64,000 nucleotides of DNA, from the NCBI GenBank assembly GCA_028709785.1, contig JAQUTK010000013.1, positions 1 to 64,000 of the forward strand, in the 5' to 3' direction. This DNA comes from Bacteroidales bacterium. Lineage in GTDB: Bacteria; Bacteroidota; Bacteroidia; Bacteroidales; JAQUTK01. Made by a program: the position numbers and the translations under genes. Under the pieces are notes generated by a model. It made no database searches, was not told the origin of the DNA, and worked only from the letters and a program-made list of their open reading frames with translations. Within the stretch, counting starts at the first letter, position 1; every line of letters starts with the position of its first letter. Below are positions 11,425 through 18,360 of the stretch, piece after piece.

Positions 11425-12297
11425 TTATCTCTGCAACAAATTATCCAACGCGGATGAAAAGGTGGGATAGGCAAATGTGAAATCTGAATCAATCAACTTC
11501 TTTGGAAATGCACTTTTATCATCTGTCAGCACTACATGTCCCGGACCAATACCTATCCGAAGAATCCATGTAGGAATAAGAACCTTCAAGATTATCGAAA
11601 ATCGTTTGGATAACAGTAAAGTTACAACCTTATTTGTCGGAGCATCGGGCGCAACAATATTCACTGCATCCCGAAGATGCTCATTATGAATGATCGCTTC
11701 GAAGGCGTACACAAGATCAGAGATATGTACCCATGACAAACGCTGTTTGCCGGAACCCAAAACGGTCGCCAATCCGAATCTGAAAGGAAAAATTAACTGA
11801 GGAAATGCACCCTGATCTGATGAAAGCACCACCCCTAAACGAGTACGAACCACCCGAATATCACCCTCCAATTTATCAAAAGCCCCCTCCCAAGCCTTAC
11901 AGAGCTGAGCCAGAAAGTCCTCTCCGGCCTCACCTTCTTCTTCGGTAACCTCTTTGCTCCCTATAGAATAGTAACCAACAGCTGATGCCGTGATAATAAG
12001 CTTGGGTTTATTGTCTGATGCTAACATGTTAATGGCTTTCACAAGCATAGATGTTGTTTCTGTTCTGCTATCGCATATCTCTTTTTTATACTTAGCTGTC
12101 CACCGCCCGGATATACTAGCTCCGGCAAGATTAATCAATACATCATAATCAGATAAGGTATGAGAGACTTCCAACACAGAGCCATTAGCAAACAAACTCC
12201 GTCCAAAGAGAGTTACATCATGACCTTTCTCCGAGAAATGTTTGTTGAGAGCTCCTCCAACAAATCCGGTGCCACCGATAATTGCTATTCTTTTCAT
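11425..12297 (-). CDS. TIGR01777-family NAD(P)-dependent epimerase/oxidoreductase
   Basis: 290 residues with an N-terminal Rossmann motif 'IIGGTGFVGGAL', then 'DVLINLAGASISGRWT', the SDR active-site region 'ASAVGYYS' and the terminal domain typical of the SulA/YfcH-like TIGR01777 family ('SFPFRFG...'-like 'LIFPFRFGLATVLGSG', 'WVHISDLV'). Biological substrate unknown in the family. The ATG overlaps the stop of the DUF4491 gene by 4 bp (ATGA), so the two are translationally coupled. Confidence 0.9.
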   Translation of the reverse strand: MKRIAIIGGTGFVGGALNKHFSEKGHDVTLFGRSLFANGSVLEVSHTLSDYDVLINLAGASISGRWTAKYKKEICDSRTETTSMLVKAINMLASDNKPKLIITASAVGYYSIGSKEVTEEEGEAGEDFLAQLCKAWEGAFDKLEGDIRVVRTRLGVVLSSDQGAFPQLIFPFRFGLATVLGSGKQRLSWVHISDLVYAFEAIIHNEHLRDAVNIVAPDAPTNKVVTLLLSKRFSIILKVLIPTWILRIGIGPGHVVLTDDKSAFPKKLIDSDFTFAYPTFSSALDNLLQR

Positions 12298-12593
12298 TCG
12301 TACTTACGTTTTGGATTACGGGGAAACCATCCTTTGTTCACTCTCTCTCTTTGTTCAAAGACCTCTTTGATGGTCCAAAAAGAAGAGAAAGAAAAAACTC
12401 CCAGCAATGCTGAAATAAAAACATTTTCAACAAATAACGAAGCTATAACTCCGATAGTACCTAAAACAAGAAATATCCACCAACATTTTGTTCCCCAGTA
12501 ATACTCCGCCTTAATGACTACCGGATGAAAGAGTCCGATAATCAGAAATGTAGCAAGCCCAATGCCTAAACCGGTAAAAGCAGTCAGTTCCAT
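12294..12593 (-). CDS. DUF4491 small membrane protein
   Basis: 99 residues with three predicted membrane helices ('GLGIGLATFLIIGLF', 'WWIFLVLGTIGVIASLF', 'ISALLGVFSFSSFWT') and a basic tail ending 'GWFPRNPKRKYE'. This is the DUF4491 pattern common in Bacteroidales; its role is unknown. It is first in a two-gene operon with the TIGR01777 gene and has a TAnnTTTG promoter about 77 bp upstream. Confidence 0.85.
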   Translation of the reverse strand: MELTAFTGLGIGLATFLIIGLFHPVVIKAEYYWGTKCWWIFLVLGTIGVIASLFVENVFISALLGVFSFSSFWTIKEVFEQRERVNKGWFPRNPKRKYE

Positions 12594-12715: not shown

Positions 12716-12883
12716 TTACATTTTTTTGTCCTCACCACTTTTACCACATGAGCTCTTTAACTTACAACCGGAACAACCTGCACATGCAGATGAGTGTTTG
12801 GATGTGATTGTTTTAATCAATGAATAAAGGAGATAGCCTATTGCCCAAAAAACAATACAGAAAACAATAATTGATTGTGTCAT
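12716..12883 (-). CDS. FeoB-associated Cys-rich membrane protein
   Basis: 55 residues from the ATG at 12883 ('MTQSIIVFCIVFWAIGYLL'); eight upstream codons in frame overlap the feoAB stop. One N-terminal transmembrane helix is followed by a Cys-rich tail, 'ACAGCSGCKLKSSCG', five Cys in CxxCxxC-like spacing. Such proteins accompany FeoB in many anaerobes and are thought to assist ferrous iron transport, perhaps as an iron or cluster ligand at the inner face. It follows feoAB by 16 bp, or overlaps it with the longer start, so it is the last gene of that operon. Confidence 0.85.
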   Translation of the reverse strand: MTQSIIVFCIVFWAIGYLLYSLIKTITSKHSSACAGCSGCKLKSSCGKSGEDKKM

Positions 12884-12899
12884 ATCTTCACACGTTAAG

Positions 12900-15386
12900 T
12901 TACACAAACAGACTGCCCACCTGATAAGTCAGGAAAGCAACAACCCAGGCAATAGCAGTGGTATATGTCATGGTAAACAAAGCCCATTTCCAGTTTGACT
13001 CCTTCTTAATAGCAGCAATAACGGCTATACAAGGGAAATAGACCAGGACAAAGAGCATAAAACCAAAGGCAACCAGTGGTGTAAATACTTTTTGTCCTTT
13101 TAAGACACCATTGGTATGTACCTGCTGCTGAAGCTTCTCGACCAGACTGCCGGAGTTTTCGTCTGCCTCCAGATCCGCATGGTACAAAATGCCCATCGAC
13201 CCAACGACAATCTCTTTCGCCGCAAGTCCGGTAATCAGACTAATTCCTATTTTCCAGTCAAATCCCAGTGGCTGGATGACCGGCTCGATGAATCGTCCTA
13301 ACTGTCCGATGTAGGATTGCTCCTGATGCTCCGAGGCTTTTAGAAGTTCCAGACTCTTTACCTGTGACTGAGCCACGGAATCCGCCAATATTTTATCAGA
13401 CTGAACAGTTGTGATCTGCGCATCATAATCTGTCGAATAGTTCACATCCTGGGGATAATAACTGAGCGCCCAGATCAGAATAGAAGCCACCAGAATAACG
13501 CTACCCATCTTATGCAAATACTGCGAACCTTTATGCCACATATGCATCACTGTATTTTTTAGTGTTGGTATCCGGTAAGGAGGTAGCTCCATCACGAAAG
13601 GAACATCTTGTTTGTGAAACACGGTATTCTTCAATACCAACGCCACCAGCACAGCAATGACAACTCCAATCAGATAAATTGAAAACAGTACCACTCCCTG
13701 ATAGTGAGGAAAAAAAGCAGAGATCAGAAGAACATAAACTGGCAACCGCGCACTACATGACATAAAAGGTGAGATCAGCATGGTAATAATGCGGTCTTTT
13801 CGGTTTTCAAGTGTTCGGGTCGCCATGATTGAAGGCACATTGCACCCAAATCCCATAAGAAGCGGAATAAATGATTTACCATGCAGTCCCATCTTATGCA
13901 TCAGACGATCCATAATAAAGGAGACTCTTGCCATATATCCCGTATCTTCCATCAAAGAGATGAAGAAGAAAAGAATCAGAATATTGGGTAAAAAGATAAT
14001 CACTCCACCTACCCCACCAATAATTCCATCCACCAGCAGAGCACGCAAAGCCCCTTCCTGCATCGAGGAACTGATCAGATCACTCAACAAACCGACTCCG
14101 GCATCAATCCACTCCATCGGATAGCCTCCCACGGTAAAAGTAGTCTGAAACATCAGCCACATAAAGAAAAAGAAAATAGGGAATCCCCATATCCGATGAG
14201 TCAGCAGGTAATCAAAATCACGCTTCTTACCTATCTGTTTCTCTTTCAGTTGAGCACACGTTTCCCGAAGAGCTCCTGATATAAACCCATATTTACTATC
14301 CGTAAGGATTGTTTCGGACTTTTCCCCATACTCTTTTTCCAACTTGCTTATCTCAAACTGACATATCTTGATGATCGTCTCATAGTTGCTACATTCCCGA
14401 AGTAAATTACGGGTGGTTTGATCGTTCTCCAACAGTTTAATGGAGAGGTAACGGGTCGAATTCAGGACAGAAACATCCACATTCTTTCGGATCTCTGTCT
14501 GAATTCTCCGAATAGAATCCTCGATCATCGTACCATAATTGATATGGATATGTCGGAGTGTAGGTTCTTTATCTTCATACACTTCAATCACTTTATCCAT
14601 CAACTCGTCAATCCCCACCCCTTTTACAGCAACGGTCGGCACAATTGGAATACCAATCATCTTCCCCAGTTCCTGATAATTCAGCTTCGTACCTTTTTGT
14701 TCCAGTTCATCGTACATATTTAAAGCCATCACCACTTTCATGTTCATGTCAATAAGCTGAGTGGTAAGAAACAAGTTTCGTTCCAGATTGGATGCATCCA
14801 CCACGTTAATCACCACATCGGGTTTTTGTTCGCTGATATGCGACCTCACATACAACTCTTCAGGCGTATATTCAGTAATAGAGTACGTACCGGGTAAGTC
14901 GGACATCTTTATTTTATAGTCGCCTCTTTTTACCGTCGCTTCTTTTACATCAACTGTCACACCCCCATAATTGCCAACCCGCTCACGCGAACCCGATGCA
15001 TAATTAAACAAGGTCGTTTTCCCGCAATTCGGATTACCTACCAGTGCGACTTGAATGATATTGCTCCATTCACGTGCTGAAGTTTTCAACCGATCTTCGA
15101 TCAGCGTACCTTCAAAAGCTGCAATCTCCTGTTGTTGCGCAGTATCTTCCGAGACCACTTCGACTAAAGAAGCCTCACTGCGACGTAATGATACATTGTA
15201 TCCCATGATACTATACTCTACAGGATCTTTCAATGGTGCATTTTTAATAACAGTAACCAATTTGCCTTTGACAAAACCCATTTCTGTCATTCTCTTGCGA
15301 AATGCTCCGTATCCGATAACCTTTGTGATTACCCCTTTTTCACCGTCTCTCAATTCAGAGAGCAGTCCGGTTTTTATCTGTGTCAT
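12900..15386 (-). CDS. feoB: FeoA-FeoB fusion, ferrous iron transporter
   Basis: 828 residues. Residues ~1-80 are a FeoA/SH3-like domain ('GAFRKRMTEMGFVKG'). A linker leads to the FeoB GTPase with G1 GNPNCGKT (117-124), G3 DLPG (163-166) and G4 NMYD (223-226). Then come the helical insertion domain and the polytopic permease with two Gate motifs, including 'GCNVPSIMATRT' and 'SCSARLPVYVLL'. It imports Fe2+ across the inner membrane under anaerobic conditions. The FeoA fusion is usual in Bacteroidetes. It lies 12 bp downstream of the porin gene and just upstream of the Cys-rich partner, so porin-feoAB-Cys-rich forms one operon. Confidence 0.97.
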   Translation of the reverse strand: MTQIKTGLLSELRDGEKGVITKVIGYGAFRKRMTEMGFVKGKLVTVIKNAPLKDPVEYSIMGYNVSLRRSEASLVEVVSEDTAQQQEIAAFEGTLIEDRLKTSAREWSNIIQVALVGNPNCGKTTLFNYASGSRERVGNYGGVTVDVKEATVKRGDYKIKMSDLPGTYSITEYTPEELYVRSHISEQKPDVVINVVDASNLERNLFLTTQLIDMNMKVVMALNMYDELEQKGTKLNYQELGKMIGIPIVPTVAVKGVGIDELMDKVIEVYEDKEPTLRHIHINYGTMIEDSIRRIQTEIRKNVDVSVLNSTRYLSIKLLENDQTTRNLLRECSNYETIIKICQFEISKLEKEYGEKSETILTDSKYGFISGALRETCAQLKEKQIGKKRDFDYLLTHRIWGFPIFFFFMWLMFQTTFTVGGYPMEWIDAGVGLLSDLISSSMQEGALRALLVDGIIGGVGGVIIFLPNILILFFFISLMEDTGYMARVSFIMDRLMHKMGLHGKSFIPLLMGFGCNVPSIMATRTLENRKDRIITMLISPFMSCSARLPVYVLLISAFFPHYQGVVLFSIYLIGVVIAVLVALVLKNTVFHKQDVPFVMELPPYRIPTLKNTVMHMWHKGSQYLHKMGSVILVASILIWALSYYPQDVNYSTDYDAQITTVQSDKILADSVAQSQVKSLELLKASEHQEQSYIGQLGRFIEPVIQPLGFDWKIGISLITGLAAKEIVVGSMGILYHADLEADENSGSLVEKLQQQVHTNGVLKGQKVFTPLVAFGFMLFVLVYFPCIAVIAAIKKESNWKWALFTMTYTTAIAWVVAFLTYQVGSLFV

Positions 15387-15398
15387 ACCTTTGATTCT

Positions 15399-16532
15399 TT
15401 AGAATGTGATGCCGAAACGAAGATTAGCCGTCAGGCAATTATCAAGATTGCCACCCGTAGCTGCCGGATGGATGATATACTGAAAGTCAGGTTGAATATA
15501 AATATGCTTTGTCAGAGGGTAGTTATAGGTTAGTTCAATTGTTGTCTCGTGATCAGGCATCTCATTAAAGTGATTATAGGCAAACGCTAGTCCCAGCACA
15601 TCATCACCCTCCTTGCGAAGCAATCCATTATAATTGATGCCACCACCTATATATACATCCGTAGTGCTGACTTTGCTCGGGCTATAACCCAATTGGGCAA
15701 ACACTCTAAGACTCTTTGTGCCCTGCTGCCAGACTTTCTGATCCACAATGGAATAGAAACTGAAAATGGTATGATTCAGCGAATCCGGAATATCCTGATC
15801 GATGAAGTGACTGTGAGAAAATGCCCCCAGTTTGTAGGTACCGGGGAGCTCTCTGATGTTCAGATTGTATTGAAGTTCGGAGATTGCCAGGATGCCGTCG
15901 GCAGTATGGTATCCCCAGGTTAAGTTGTGCGGATTATGCTCAAAGTCGGTCGGACTACCATCATATAACGCATTCAGCCAGGTAATTTTCTCATTCATGT
16001 TCCACTTTACCGTCAGTCCCAGAGAAGTCAGAGGAAATATCGGTGCCGCAATATTCGCAGAGATAAGCGGCATGATGCCAAAGGAGCTGTTCATGAAGAC
16101 CGCCCCGTTTTCTGTATTGGCAAATTCCACATTCAGGTCCTGCAAACCGGCAATCAGATCCACCTGACCCATTGTCTGCTTAAACCATAATTCTTGCACG
16201 TAGGTATGATCACCGGCCTCAATATTGGACACCACCTGAGCATCGCCAAGCATATCTGCCGATGGAGTCGCGCCATGCGTGTTTGCAGCATTCAGATAGA
16301 AGGATCCTCCCTTCCACAGTCCGGCATTTTGTGTATCAAATAATACCCGGAGATTGGCCATCCCTAAATAGGACGAACCTCTTTTGATCCCTCCCGAAAA
16401 ATTATTGATATTATCACCAATGTATGAAGCCTCGAAAGTGAAAGCTTCTTCTTTTGTTTTTGTCGCATCCTGTGCCGACAATTTAAACATGATACCCGAT
16501 AACAGAGTAAATGTAAGTACTATTCTTCTCAT
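15399..16532 (-). CDS. Outer-membrane porin (OprB-like carbohydrate-selective fold)
   Basis: 377 residues with a signal peptide ('MRRIVLTFTLLSGIMFKLSAQ') and a beta-rich sequence ending in Phe ('LRFGITF'), as expected for an outer-membrane barrel. The stretches 'GGSFYLNAANTHGA', 'QDLNVEFANTENG' and 'GAVFMNSSFG' resemble OprB-family porins. The substrate is not known. Being the promoter-proximal gene of the feoAB operon suggests a role in outer-membrane passage of ferrous iron or a ligand of it, which is inference from operon structure. A -7 box lies 29 bp upstream. Confidence 0.8.
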   Translation of the reverse strand: MRRIVLTFTLLSGIMFKLSAQDATKTKEEAFTFEASYIGDNINNFSGGIKRGSSYLGMANLRVLFDTQNAGLWKGGSFYLNAANTHGATPSADMLGDAQVVSNIEAGDHTYVQELWFKQTMGQVDLIAGLQDLNVEFANTENGAVFMNSSFGIMPLISANIAAPIFPLTSLGLTVKWNMNEKITWLNALYDGSPTDFEHNPHNLTWGYHTADGILAISELQYNLNIRELPGTYKLGAFSHSHFIDQDIPDSLNHTIFSFYSIVDQKVWQQGTKSLRVFAQLGYSPSKVSTTDVYIGGGINYNGLLRKEGDDVLGLAFAYNHFNEMPDHETTIELTYNYPLTKHIYIQPDFQYIIHPAATGGNLDNCLTANLRFGITF

Positions 16533-16560
16533 CTTTTGTAATGTTACTGATTTGACAGTA

Positions 16561-16568
16561 CAAAAGTA
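16561..16568 (-). promoter_or_regulatory. -7 box TACTTTTG for porin-feoAB operon
   Basis: Minus-strand TACTTTTG 29 bp upstream of the porin ATG, matching TAnnTTTG. Confidence 0.65.
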
Positions 16569-16657
16569 GTGCTGTTAAGCAAGAGCGAAAATCCCTATAA
16601 ATAGTGATTCGTTACGCCGCCCCTCATTAGAAATAAGGATAAAAACGCTTTTTTCAC

Positions 16658-17254
16658 TCATTGAATCTCACTTTGTTCTATCATCTTGTTCAATAAAGCA
16701 TAGACGGCAAGTCCGGATATTGACTTTATTCCTGTCTTTCTGGAAATATTCTTTCGGTGGGAAATCACCGTATGAATAGATATATTATGTAACGCGGCTA
16801 TCTCTTTATTTATCATCCCCTTAGCCACAGCAACAAGGATCTCTTTTTCACGTTCCGACAGATCATTCCCTTCGGATACAAGTTCATCCTGCTCATTATT
16901 AACAATGACTGCCTCTCTGAGTTTGGAGTCGATCTTGCTCTGATCATCATATATATCTATCACGGAAGCAAACTGTTTCAGCATTTCATGATCTGTATAG
17001 CTATACACAAGGGCTACCAATACCACTCCTTCAAACATATTCTTCACCGTATTGCGTCTGTGAAATTCTATCAGAGCTGGATTAAGTACAACGATATCCG
17101 CTCGCATCATTGCCAGATATTCCTCCTGATGATGCATGTCATACACCGAACCGACTACCTCAAAGCCACGGCAATGAGATATGACAGCTTTGAGCCCTTC
17201 CTGCACGATTGGTGAAGGCTCTATAAGTACGACCCGATAGGTTTTACTCTTCAT
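16658..17254 (-). CDS. LuxR-type regulator with degenerate receiver domain
   Basis: 198 residues from the ATG at 17254 ('MKSKTYRVVLIEPSPIVQEG'); this start overlaps the stop of the upstream hemerythrin gene by 11 bp. Residues ~5-120 have a receiver-like fold, but the phosphoacceptor strand reads 'ADIVVLNPALIE', with Asn where Asp is expected, and the acidic pocket is weak. The C-terminus is a LuxR/GerE helix-turn-helix ('LSEREKEILVAVAKGMINKEIAALHNISIHTV', shown here only as a region at ~130-165). Architecture and context recall CdhR, the orphan LuxR-family regulator linked to haemin in Porphyromonas gingivalis; homology is my inference. It probably acts without phosphorylation and may control the adjacent iron genes. 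Confidence 0.85.
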   Translation of the reverse strand: MKSKTYRVVLIEPSPIVQEGLKAVISHCRGFEVVGSVYDMHHQEEYLAMMRADIVVLNPALIEFHRRNTVKNMFEGVVLVALVYSYTDHEMLKQFASVIDIYDDQSKIDSKLREAVIVNNEQDELVSEGNDLSEREKEILVAVAKGMINKEIAALHNISIHTVISHRKNISRKTGIKSISGLAVYALLNKMIEQSEIQ

Positions 17255-17954
17255 ATTTCTTCTCCATCTCTTCCACAAAAGGCACCAGAATCTTATCTTC
17301 AATCAGAGAGTGTTTATTCAGATCTTCTTCAAACAAGAAGATATCAAAGAGCACATCTGTTCGTTCTTTCGACGAACAGCTTTCCGGGAGGTACTTGATA
17401 ATGATATTCTTCAGATCACCCAGTTTATCTTCTATGTTACTGTGATTCTGTTCATACTGCTGTATATGATAACCAACTTTCGTTTCCCCTTTCATCAGGG
17501 CTATGATATACGGGAAAACCACTTCCTCTTCATAGTTAAAATGATTGACTACCTCTTTTTCATATTCCTTGAAGAATGAATGGATGATATCATGATGCAT
17601 TCCGGAGCAACAACTCCGCATCAGTTCCAGTTTTTGTTTGATGGAAGCGATCCGATCCTCCATATAATAGCGGTGTGAACGCTTCAAATAGCCGATCAGA
17701 CTCTCTATATCCAGTGTAGAGATCTCTATTTTGTCGGGAAGATACTCATGAAAGGTGTAGACATTGCAAACAAGCAGGAAAAAGGTCTCATTCACATTGT
17801 ACTTGCGACAGATCTCGGACAGACTCTTCTCTCCAAACCCCAACTGAATATCAAATCGGGGCAATACGGTCAGCAACGCATAATTGGAAAGCAATATGTC
17901 CGCCAGTTTCATCGAAGGAGAAAATAACGTATGCCTTTTATCCGTCGTATTCAT
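17244..17954 (-). CDS. Hemerythrin-domain protein, RIC/YtfE-like
   Basis: 236 residues. The C-terminal two-thirds are a hemerythrin-like four-helix bundle with candidate di-iron ligands in 'MHHDIIHSF', 'NHFNYEEEVVFPYI', 'QYEQNHSNIE' and 'NKHSLIEDKILVPFVEE'. The N-terminal ~60 residues ('LADILLSNYALLTVLPRFDI...SLSEICRKYNV') match the outline of the DUF542 domain of RIC (YtfE/ScdA) iron-sulfur repair proteins, but the usual Cys-Cys pair is absent. RIC proteins handle iron under NO or oxidative stress. It is co-transcribed and overlaps the LuxR-type regulator, so a sensor role for O2, NO or iron is plausible. Family call good, function inferred. Confidence 0.8.
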   Translation of the reverse strand: MNTTDKRHTLFSPSMKLADILLSNYALLTVLPRFDIQLGFGEKSLSEICRKYNVNETFFLLVCNVYTFHEYLPDKIEISTLDIESLIGYLKRSHRYYMEDRIASIKQKLELMRSCCSGMHHDIIHSFFKEYEKEVVNHFNYEEEVVFPYIIALMKGETKVGYHIQQYEQNHSNIEDKLGDLKNIIIKYLPESCSSKERTDVLFDIFLFEEDLNKHSLIEDKILVPFVEEMEKKYEE

Positions 17955-17996: not shown

Positions 17997-18004
17997 CAAA
18001 TATA
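17997..18004 (-). promoter_or_regulatory. -7 box TATATTTG for hemerythrin-luxR operon
   Basis: Minus-strand TATATTTG 43 bp upstream of the hemerythrin ATG. The leader between them can form two small hairpins (CTTTTA/TAAAAG and ACCCG/CGGGT), a possible control point. Confidence 0.6.
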
Positions 18005-18084: not shown

Positions 18085-18360
18085 ATGATTCGACTAAATG
18101 TATTTCTCTTAGTAGAAGATGCAAACCGTGCCAAGGTATTGGAAGCATCCAAGGAGTTGACCGCTAATTCGGTAAAAGAAGAAGGATGTGTTGCTTATGA
18201 CGTGTTTGAAAGTGCAACCCGTCCAAATGTTTTGATGATTTGCGAAACATGGAAAAACGCAGAAACACTGGCTAACCACGAAAAGGGAAGCGTGTTCATC
18301 AAAAACATAGCTATTCTCAAAGAGTTTGCCTCTATCAAAATTGAGAAATTTGACTTTTAA
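18085..18360 (+). CDS. ABM-domain (antibiotic biosynthesis monooxygenase-type) protein
   Basis: 91 residues forming one dimeric alpha-beta barrel ABM domain: 'MIRLNVFLLVEDANRAKVLE', 'EGCVAYDVFESATRPNVLMI', 'CETWKNAETLANHEKGSVF'. Such small proteins include quinol monooxygenases (YgiN), haem-degrading IsdG types and enzymes of unknown role. No distinguishing Asn-Trp-His haem-degradation triad is obvious. It is monocistronic, divergent from the hemerythrin-luxR operon, and followed by a small hairpin at 18397-18416. Given the iron neighbours a redox or haem role is possible but unproven. Confidence 0.85.
   Translation: MIRLNVFLLVEDANRAKVLEASKELTANSVKEEGCVAYDVFESATRPNVLMICETWKNAETLANHEKGSVFIKNIAILKEFASIKIEKFDF

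Follow-up and report, generated by a model that had tools for sequence, protein, structure and literature searches.

The window analysed here, a stretch of 64,000 nucleotides of Bacteroidales contig JAQUTK010000013.1, carries on its minus strand a run of genes in the order hemerythrin, regulator, OprB porin, FeoA-FeoB fusion and FeoB-associated Cys peptide. The coordinates, strand and order of these genes, as given in the original prediction, were all confirmed by open reading frames and Pfam matches, and so was the reported overlap of the first two, which spans 11 bp (17244-17254) between the LuxR ATG and the stop codon of the hemerythrin. The genes and the predicted regulatory elements of the locus are as follows:

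17244..17954, minus strand: hemerythrin-like di-iron protein, 236 aa, predicted sensor (PF01814, E 6e-10)
16658..17254, minus strand: NarL/LuxR-type regulator with pseudo-receiver, 198 aa, ATG at 17254 (PF00196, E 2e-14)
15399..16532, minus strand: OprB-family porin, 377 aa, predicted target (PF04966, E 2.6e-53)
12900..15386, minus strand: FeoA-FeoB fusion, 828 aa, ferrous iron transporter, predicted target (FeoA, FeoB_N, FeoB_Cyto, Gate and FeoB_C; TIGR00437, 628 bits)
12716..12907, minus strand: FeoB-associated Cys-rich membrane peptide, 63 aa (PF12669, 29.8 bits, cut-off 27)
16591..16608, minus strand: predicted operator ATCACTATTTATAGGGAT, a 7-2-7 palindrome upstream of the porin-feoAB operon (PWM, 19.7 bits)
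16561..16568, minus strand: predicted -7 element TACTTTTG of the porin-feoAB promoter, 22 nt downstream of the operator
17997..18004, minus strand: predicted -7 element TATATTTG of the hemerythrin-luxR operon, with no strong operator upstream

The Feo system of the window has FeoA, FeoB and the FeoB-associated Cys peptide, all recognised by Pfam and TIGRFAM-type profiles. A second FeoB is encoded on a different contig of the same genome, and the window hemerythrin is the sole PF01814 match in that genome. Two neighbouring genes are recorded as side observations. Next to the feo operon is a gene for a DUF4491 membrane protein (12294-12593); members of this family also occur near the hemerythrin-luxR pair at L179, L188, L195, L216 and L224 and, at L362, directly after a composite operator of the type described below, and they may be part of the iron response. 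At 18085-18360, a gene of the ABM family (antibiotic biosynthesis monooxygenase) is divergent from the hemerythrin-luxR operon.

Conservation of the hemerythrin-regulator pair

Besides the window, the survey took in 100 genomes of Bacteroidales, representing almost as many genera, and yielded 102 hemerythrin genes at 101 loci. The original prediction had set conserved pairing beforehand as one of its refutation tests; 97 of the 102 genes are paired with a regulator or fused to it, two of them in reversed order. In 90 cases, the regulator lies directly downstream on the same strand with a gap near zero, whereas in the two reversed cases it lies directly upstream. Five genes encode single fused hemerythrin-HTH proteins from which the receiver is absent. 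One locus (L069) is truncated where its contig stops, and no regulator was found at four others (L045, L108, L112 and L123; 4/102). This arrangement is well beyond chance. The order regulator, porin, FeoAB and Cys peptide was seen at three loci (the window, L062 and L129). More generally, FeoAB lies within about 8 kb of the pair at 10 of 101 loci, representing eight families and at least four arrangements (p 6e-8); among 80 named relatives, 21 have it no more than 9 kb away (p 5e-22). Both p-values are rough chance estimates that are inflated by genome relatedness. Several apparent FEO neighbours were left uncounted, as their matches are weak (E about 1e-4 to 1e-17) and look like other GTPases.

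The six YtfE-type di-iron ligands of the hemerythrin (H94, H138, E142, H171, H215 and E219) are invariant in 102 of 102 homologues. The regulator matches the LuxR HTH model in Pfam and none of the receiver-domain models, with the HTH being strongly conserved across the family. In the window protein, N58 occupies the phosphoacceptor position, E12-P13 lies in the acidic pocket, and D103 is found near the usual Lys position. The substitution of Asn for the phosphoacceptor Asp, which had been claimed for this protein, extends to the whole family: this column holds N in 55, D in 9 and S in 9 of the 90 partners, while the acidic-pair columns are mostly Glu-Pro and the Lys column is mostly Asp. Read from these columns, the regulator is a pseudo-receiver protein family-wide.

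A predicted 7-2-7 operator at a set distance from the promoter

In a subset of genomes, the non-coding DNA upstream of hemerythrin contains ATACCTAT-NN-ATAGGTAT or variants thereof, described by the palindrome ATMCCYAT-NN-ATRGGKAT, which is of the NarL-like 7-2-7 type. An earlier motif (AAAATGGC and others) reflected codon conservation round the hemerythrin start, arising from 60 coding bases, and was replaced by this non-coding-only search. When a position weight matrix (PWM) trained solely on regions upstream of hemerythrin was applied elsewhere, its best window site was 16591-16608 in the regulator-porin gap (19.7 bits; next window site, 12.2 bits), which is also the only exact pattern match in the window genome. 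The hemerythrin-luxR promoter of the window genome has no strong operator upstream. Among the genes directly downstream of the pair that possess an upstream gap of their own, six sites exceed 15 bits, all of which precede either an OprB porin or an exported protein of about 400 aa. The latter proteins gave no Pfam match, and we call them porin-like only since some of their relatives weakly match porin models. At the loci of the first set, the operator precedes an OprB porin in four of five cases. In 78 held-out loci, sites of at least 14.5 bits were found for 18 of 75 hemerythrin genes (p 3e-15) and 4 of 19 FeoAB genes (p 7e-5), compared with 8 of 846 other genes, and permuted matrices gave about 0.1. 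A loose whole-genome pattern (ATMMCYATNNATRGKKAT) produced about 84 matches versus about 62 for the reversed control, so that most single matches are due to chance; the claims made here rest only on tightened and composite patterns.

The operator stands at a fixed distance from the promoter. For 44 of 127 distinct sites, the distance downstream to TAnnTTTG, the -7 element of the Bacteroidota, is exactly 22 nt, and for 57 it is 21-24 nt; the reversed control shows no distance peak. The window conforms to this geometry, with exactly 22 nt between the operator and TACTTTTG and the porin ATG 28 nt further on. Given the usual position of the -7 element, a spacing of 22 nt means that the operator spans about -34 to -51, a position from which an activator would contact the polymerase. 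Most composite sites have TG after the palindrome, giving ATTG, which is consistent with an overlap between the palindrome end and the -33 TTG. NarL uses a similar promoter position at napF, and its model site (TACCCCTAAAGGGGTA) shows the 7-2-7 form (PMC4549865). The 127 sites also show a second distance peak, at 53-55 nt to TAnnTTTG, which suggests that some promoters carry tandem operators spaced by about 32 bp.

Operator and -7 element were then combined into a composite pattern, ATNCCNANNNNTNGGNAT-N22-TANNTTTG, which occurs 102 times in 295 genomes, compared with a single occurrence of the reversed pattern. It is present in 70 of 203 hemerythrin-positive and 8 of 92 hemerythrin-negative genomes (p 8e-7, a value that overstates independence given related genomes, with hemerythrin presence or absence read from the survey and sites tallied by hand). 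The strict operator alone yields 64 sites versus 12 for the control in hemerythrin-positive genomes and 8 versus 7 in negative ones. Because strict and composite sites track the presence of hemerythrin, the distribution argues for the hemerythrin-linked regulator, rather than a universal iron repressor, as the probable user of the site. A strict composite site is found in only about a third of the genomes with the pair. Conversely, eight genomes without detected hemerythrin carry the composite; some are incomplete and two are about 99% complete. Composite operators were noted in the hemerythrin-negative genomes G075, G178 and G209, which may have a diverged sensor. In the window genome (3.55 Mb), the porin-feoAB promoter (16561-16608) is the single best composite match, with 1 mismatch; own-genome matches at 3 mismatches are noise (58 vs 46) save for this one.

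FeoAB forms the largest target class, with 29 of 87 classified downstream proteins, mostly on other contigs than the pair. It is followed by porin-like outer-membrane proteins or barrels, DUF1858/DUF2249 proteins, TonB receptors, TetR regulators and flavodoxin, with hemerythrin itself, cation efflux and PepSY proteins as further classes; AhpC and thioredoxin are also among the site-bearing genes. The original prediction had the LuxR-type protein regulate ferrous iron uptake and flagged the gap at 16533-16657 as its binding region. With the genome-best operator situated in this gap and feoAB as the most frequent target, the regulatory link to ferrous iron uptake is strongly supported, and the LuxR-type protein is the predicted binder. 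Individual targets merit separate mention. DUF1858/DUF2249 proteins, some of them ferredoxin-fused, are encoded at L304, L305, L356, L369-L371, L375, L376, L380, L409, L410 and L412. A small His-containing membrane protein (about 100-122 aa) with no Pfam match repeatedly lies just downstream of the operator (L244, L295, L299, L359, L366 and L400). A 20.9-bit site precedes the HmuY-HmuR operon at L258, HmuY promoters showing one clear operator among 30 loci; HmuY is absent from the window genome.

Iron status as the candidate signal

Taken together, these results make it likely that the products of the hemerythrin and LuxR genes work together as sensor and activator in response to iron status, via the 7-2-7 operator. 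We infer that the LuxR-type protein is the binder, that it is controlled by the adjacent hemerythrin through a di-iron centre held by the latter, and that iron is the signal. The phosphate-refractory receiver would probably serve as a docking and dimerisation surface, and in some lineages the hemerythrin is joined straight to the DNA-binding domain, with no receiver left. Under iron scarcity, the di-iron site would presumably be empty or altered and the regulator active. It would then bind as a dimer to the palindrome, whose centre lies about 42 bp before the transcription start and by the -33 region, thereby activating the porin, FeoAB and further genes for iron uptake or iron sparing. The clearest target in the window genome would be the porin-feoAB-Cys-peptide operon immediately downstream.

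Hemerythrin-CdhR operons have already been described in Porphyromonas gingivalis (hemerythrin PG1236, CdhR PG1237) and B. thetaiotaomicron (BT0519-BT0520), where iron depletion induces them about 7-fold and 16-20-fold, respectively (PMC10434189). The same work includes a fused hemerythrin-HTH form, Prevotella intermedia PIN17_RS10465, links CdhR to hmu haem uptake and states its mechanism to be unclear (PMC10434189); according to other reports, CdhR activates hmu genes (PMC10101095; PMC9666725). Several operator target classes, namely flavodoxin, TetR-ABC, hmu and TonB, are also represented where iron depletion causes the strongest gene induction in B. thetaiotaomicron, P. gingivalis or P. intermedia (PMC10434189). 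These published data favour iron status as the signal (PMC10434189), and a switch responding to iron status is the simplest reading by analogy with eukaryotic iron-sensing hemerythrin domains (PMC12022348), although another regulator could be responsible for the response of the operon to iron. Our additions to this published picture are the operator, the promoter spacing, the FeoAB/porin regulon, the loss of the receiver in fusions and the family-wide conservation of the ligands; no earlier report of the operator, of an FeoAB regulon or link, or of receiver loss in the fusion was found in a search of mainly open-access papers. More tentatively, the hemerythrin may be a direct cytoplasmic iron sensor, a bacterial counterpart of FBXL5/BRUTUS, that gates a pseudo-receiver activator, which would then be a main iron-starvation activator across the Bacteroidales via the 7-2-7 operator, acting together with a ferrous-sensing Fur or instead of one.

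A serious rival retains the same pair and operator and has the hemerythrin sense O2, NO or redox, with the iron genes as one arm of an oxygen/nitrosative stress response. Hemerythrin-fold proteins do bind O2 or NO, YtfE reacts with NO (PMC9268430), and cdhR is reported to be down under microaerophilic conditions (PMC10101095), in line with the DUF1858/DUF2249, AhpC and thioredoxin genes among those bearing a site. However, the largest target classes concern iron uptake, flavodoxin is also represented, the operon responds strongly to iron depletion (PMC10434189), and H-HxxxE-H-HxxxE sites, as in FBXL5 and BRUTUS, can report iron itself (PMC12022348). We regard this alternative as unlikely, if the strongest of its kind.

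A lower probability still attaches to the idea that the operator is owned by a different iron regulator, with the hemerythrin-luxR operon simply among the genes it controls. This operon and many iron genes do have the site upstream, and the LuxR-type protein is a predicted binder, but the strict motif rises above its control only in the presence of hemerythrin, and the palindrome has the shape of the NarL-family 7-2-7 type, which we take to be unlike Fur or DtxR boxes. Fur-family proteins exist in such bacteria, yet the P. gingivalis Fur orthologue is devoid of the ferrous sensor site (PMC4222909).

For the proposed sensor-activator pair, the predicted regulon comprises feoAB, the porin, flavodoxin, and haem and TonB receptors. 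Iron sensing in the Bacteroidales is poorly understood, and an operator with fixed spacing makes the question open to binding and reporter tests.

Comparison with known systems

The AlphaFold model of the hemerythrin (pLDDT 91.5) has its nearest folds in the RIC/YtfE proteins (Z 14.5-15.3), with Z 15.3 for S. aureus ScdA (9j47) and 14.8 for E. coli YtfE (5fny); these two superpose at an rmsd of 3.2-3.4 over 146-152 residues, and unrelated helical bundles reach Z 12.9. The di-iron ligands of E. coli YtfE are H84, H129, E133, H160, H204 and E208 (PMC9268430), and the six ligands of the window protein match them in order and spacing. E134 corresponds to the conserved E125 of YtfE, whereas Asn170 replaces E159. 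Thus, the window hemerythrin shares the four-helix bundle and the six di-iron ligands with RIC, YtfE and ScdA. At the same time, the DUF542 Cys pair is missing, as originally claimed: the DfCCgG pair is absent from the family (CC in 0 of 102 homologues), LGFG stands in place of CCGG in the window protein, and a profile search for ScdA_N (PF04405) gave no match anywhere in the window genome. Cys49 (codon 17808-17810), which is not a RIC cysteine, is near-invariant (100/102) in the degenerate ScdA_N-like N-domain and is possibly a redox, NO or contact residue. This N-domain is also weakly similar to a small solved fold, 2k53 (Z 8.5). Against the RIC family model TIGR03652, the protein scores 57.7 bits, compared with a curated cut-off of 204.7. 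The label RIC-like therefore holds for the fold and metal site, yet the protein does not qualify as a RIC, because it has no Cys pair and scores far below the cut-off; for the same reasons, the earlier framing in terms of RIC and NO damage is weakened and the NO-repair reading was rejected. A RIC-kind enzyme for iron-centre repair or iron donation, co-expressed with an unrelated regulator, would fit the ligands and fold of YtfE and ScdA, but it is very improbable in view of the Cys pair missing in all 102 homologues and the low family score, and of the near-universal pairing with, or in five loci fusion to, a transcription regulator, which in itself sets this hemerythrin apart from RIC.

The regulator model (pLDDT 91.3) finds VraR (E 5e-10), LiaR (9e-10) and NarL (7e-9) in Foldseek and thus shares the receiver-plus-HTH fold of these response regulators, and its putative operator is a 7-2-7 palindrome, as for NarL. 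It differs from them in having Asn for Asp, in the loss of the acidic pair and Lys, and in that the receiver is dispensable in the hemerythrin-HTH fusions, natural single-chain proteins that are useful for structural work. We likewise give little credence to the idea that phosphorylation still switches the LuxR-type protein, for instance via the tyrosine phosphorylation pathway linked to CdhR, which acts downstream of Ltp1/Ptk1 in P. gingivalis (PMC4082711), and that the hemerythrin modulates only the stability of the LuxR-type protein, since the family as a whole has lost the canonical Asp, the acidic pair and the Lys, and fusions exist without any receiver.

The closest described system is that of CdhR, in which the hemerythrin is upstream or fused, as here, a likeness drawn from the published description of that operon. 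Beyond bacteria, FBXL5 and BRUTUS likewise tie an H-HxxxE-H-HxxxE di-iron site to the control of iron uptake, a comparison confined to the way these proteins work. Their output is eukaryotic ubiquitin ligation, whereas the predicted output here is transcription activation. If iron is indeed the signal, iron sensing by hemerythrin domains would extend from eukaryotic ubiquitin ligases to the control of bacterial transcription.
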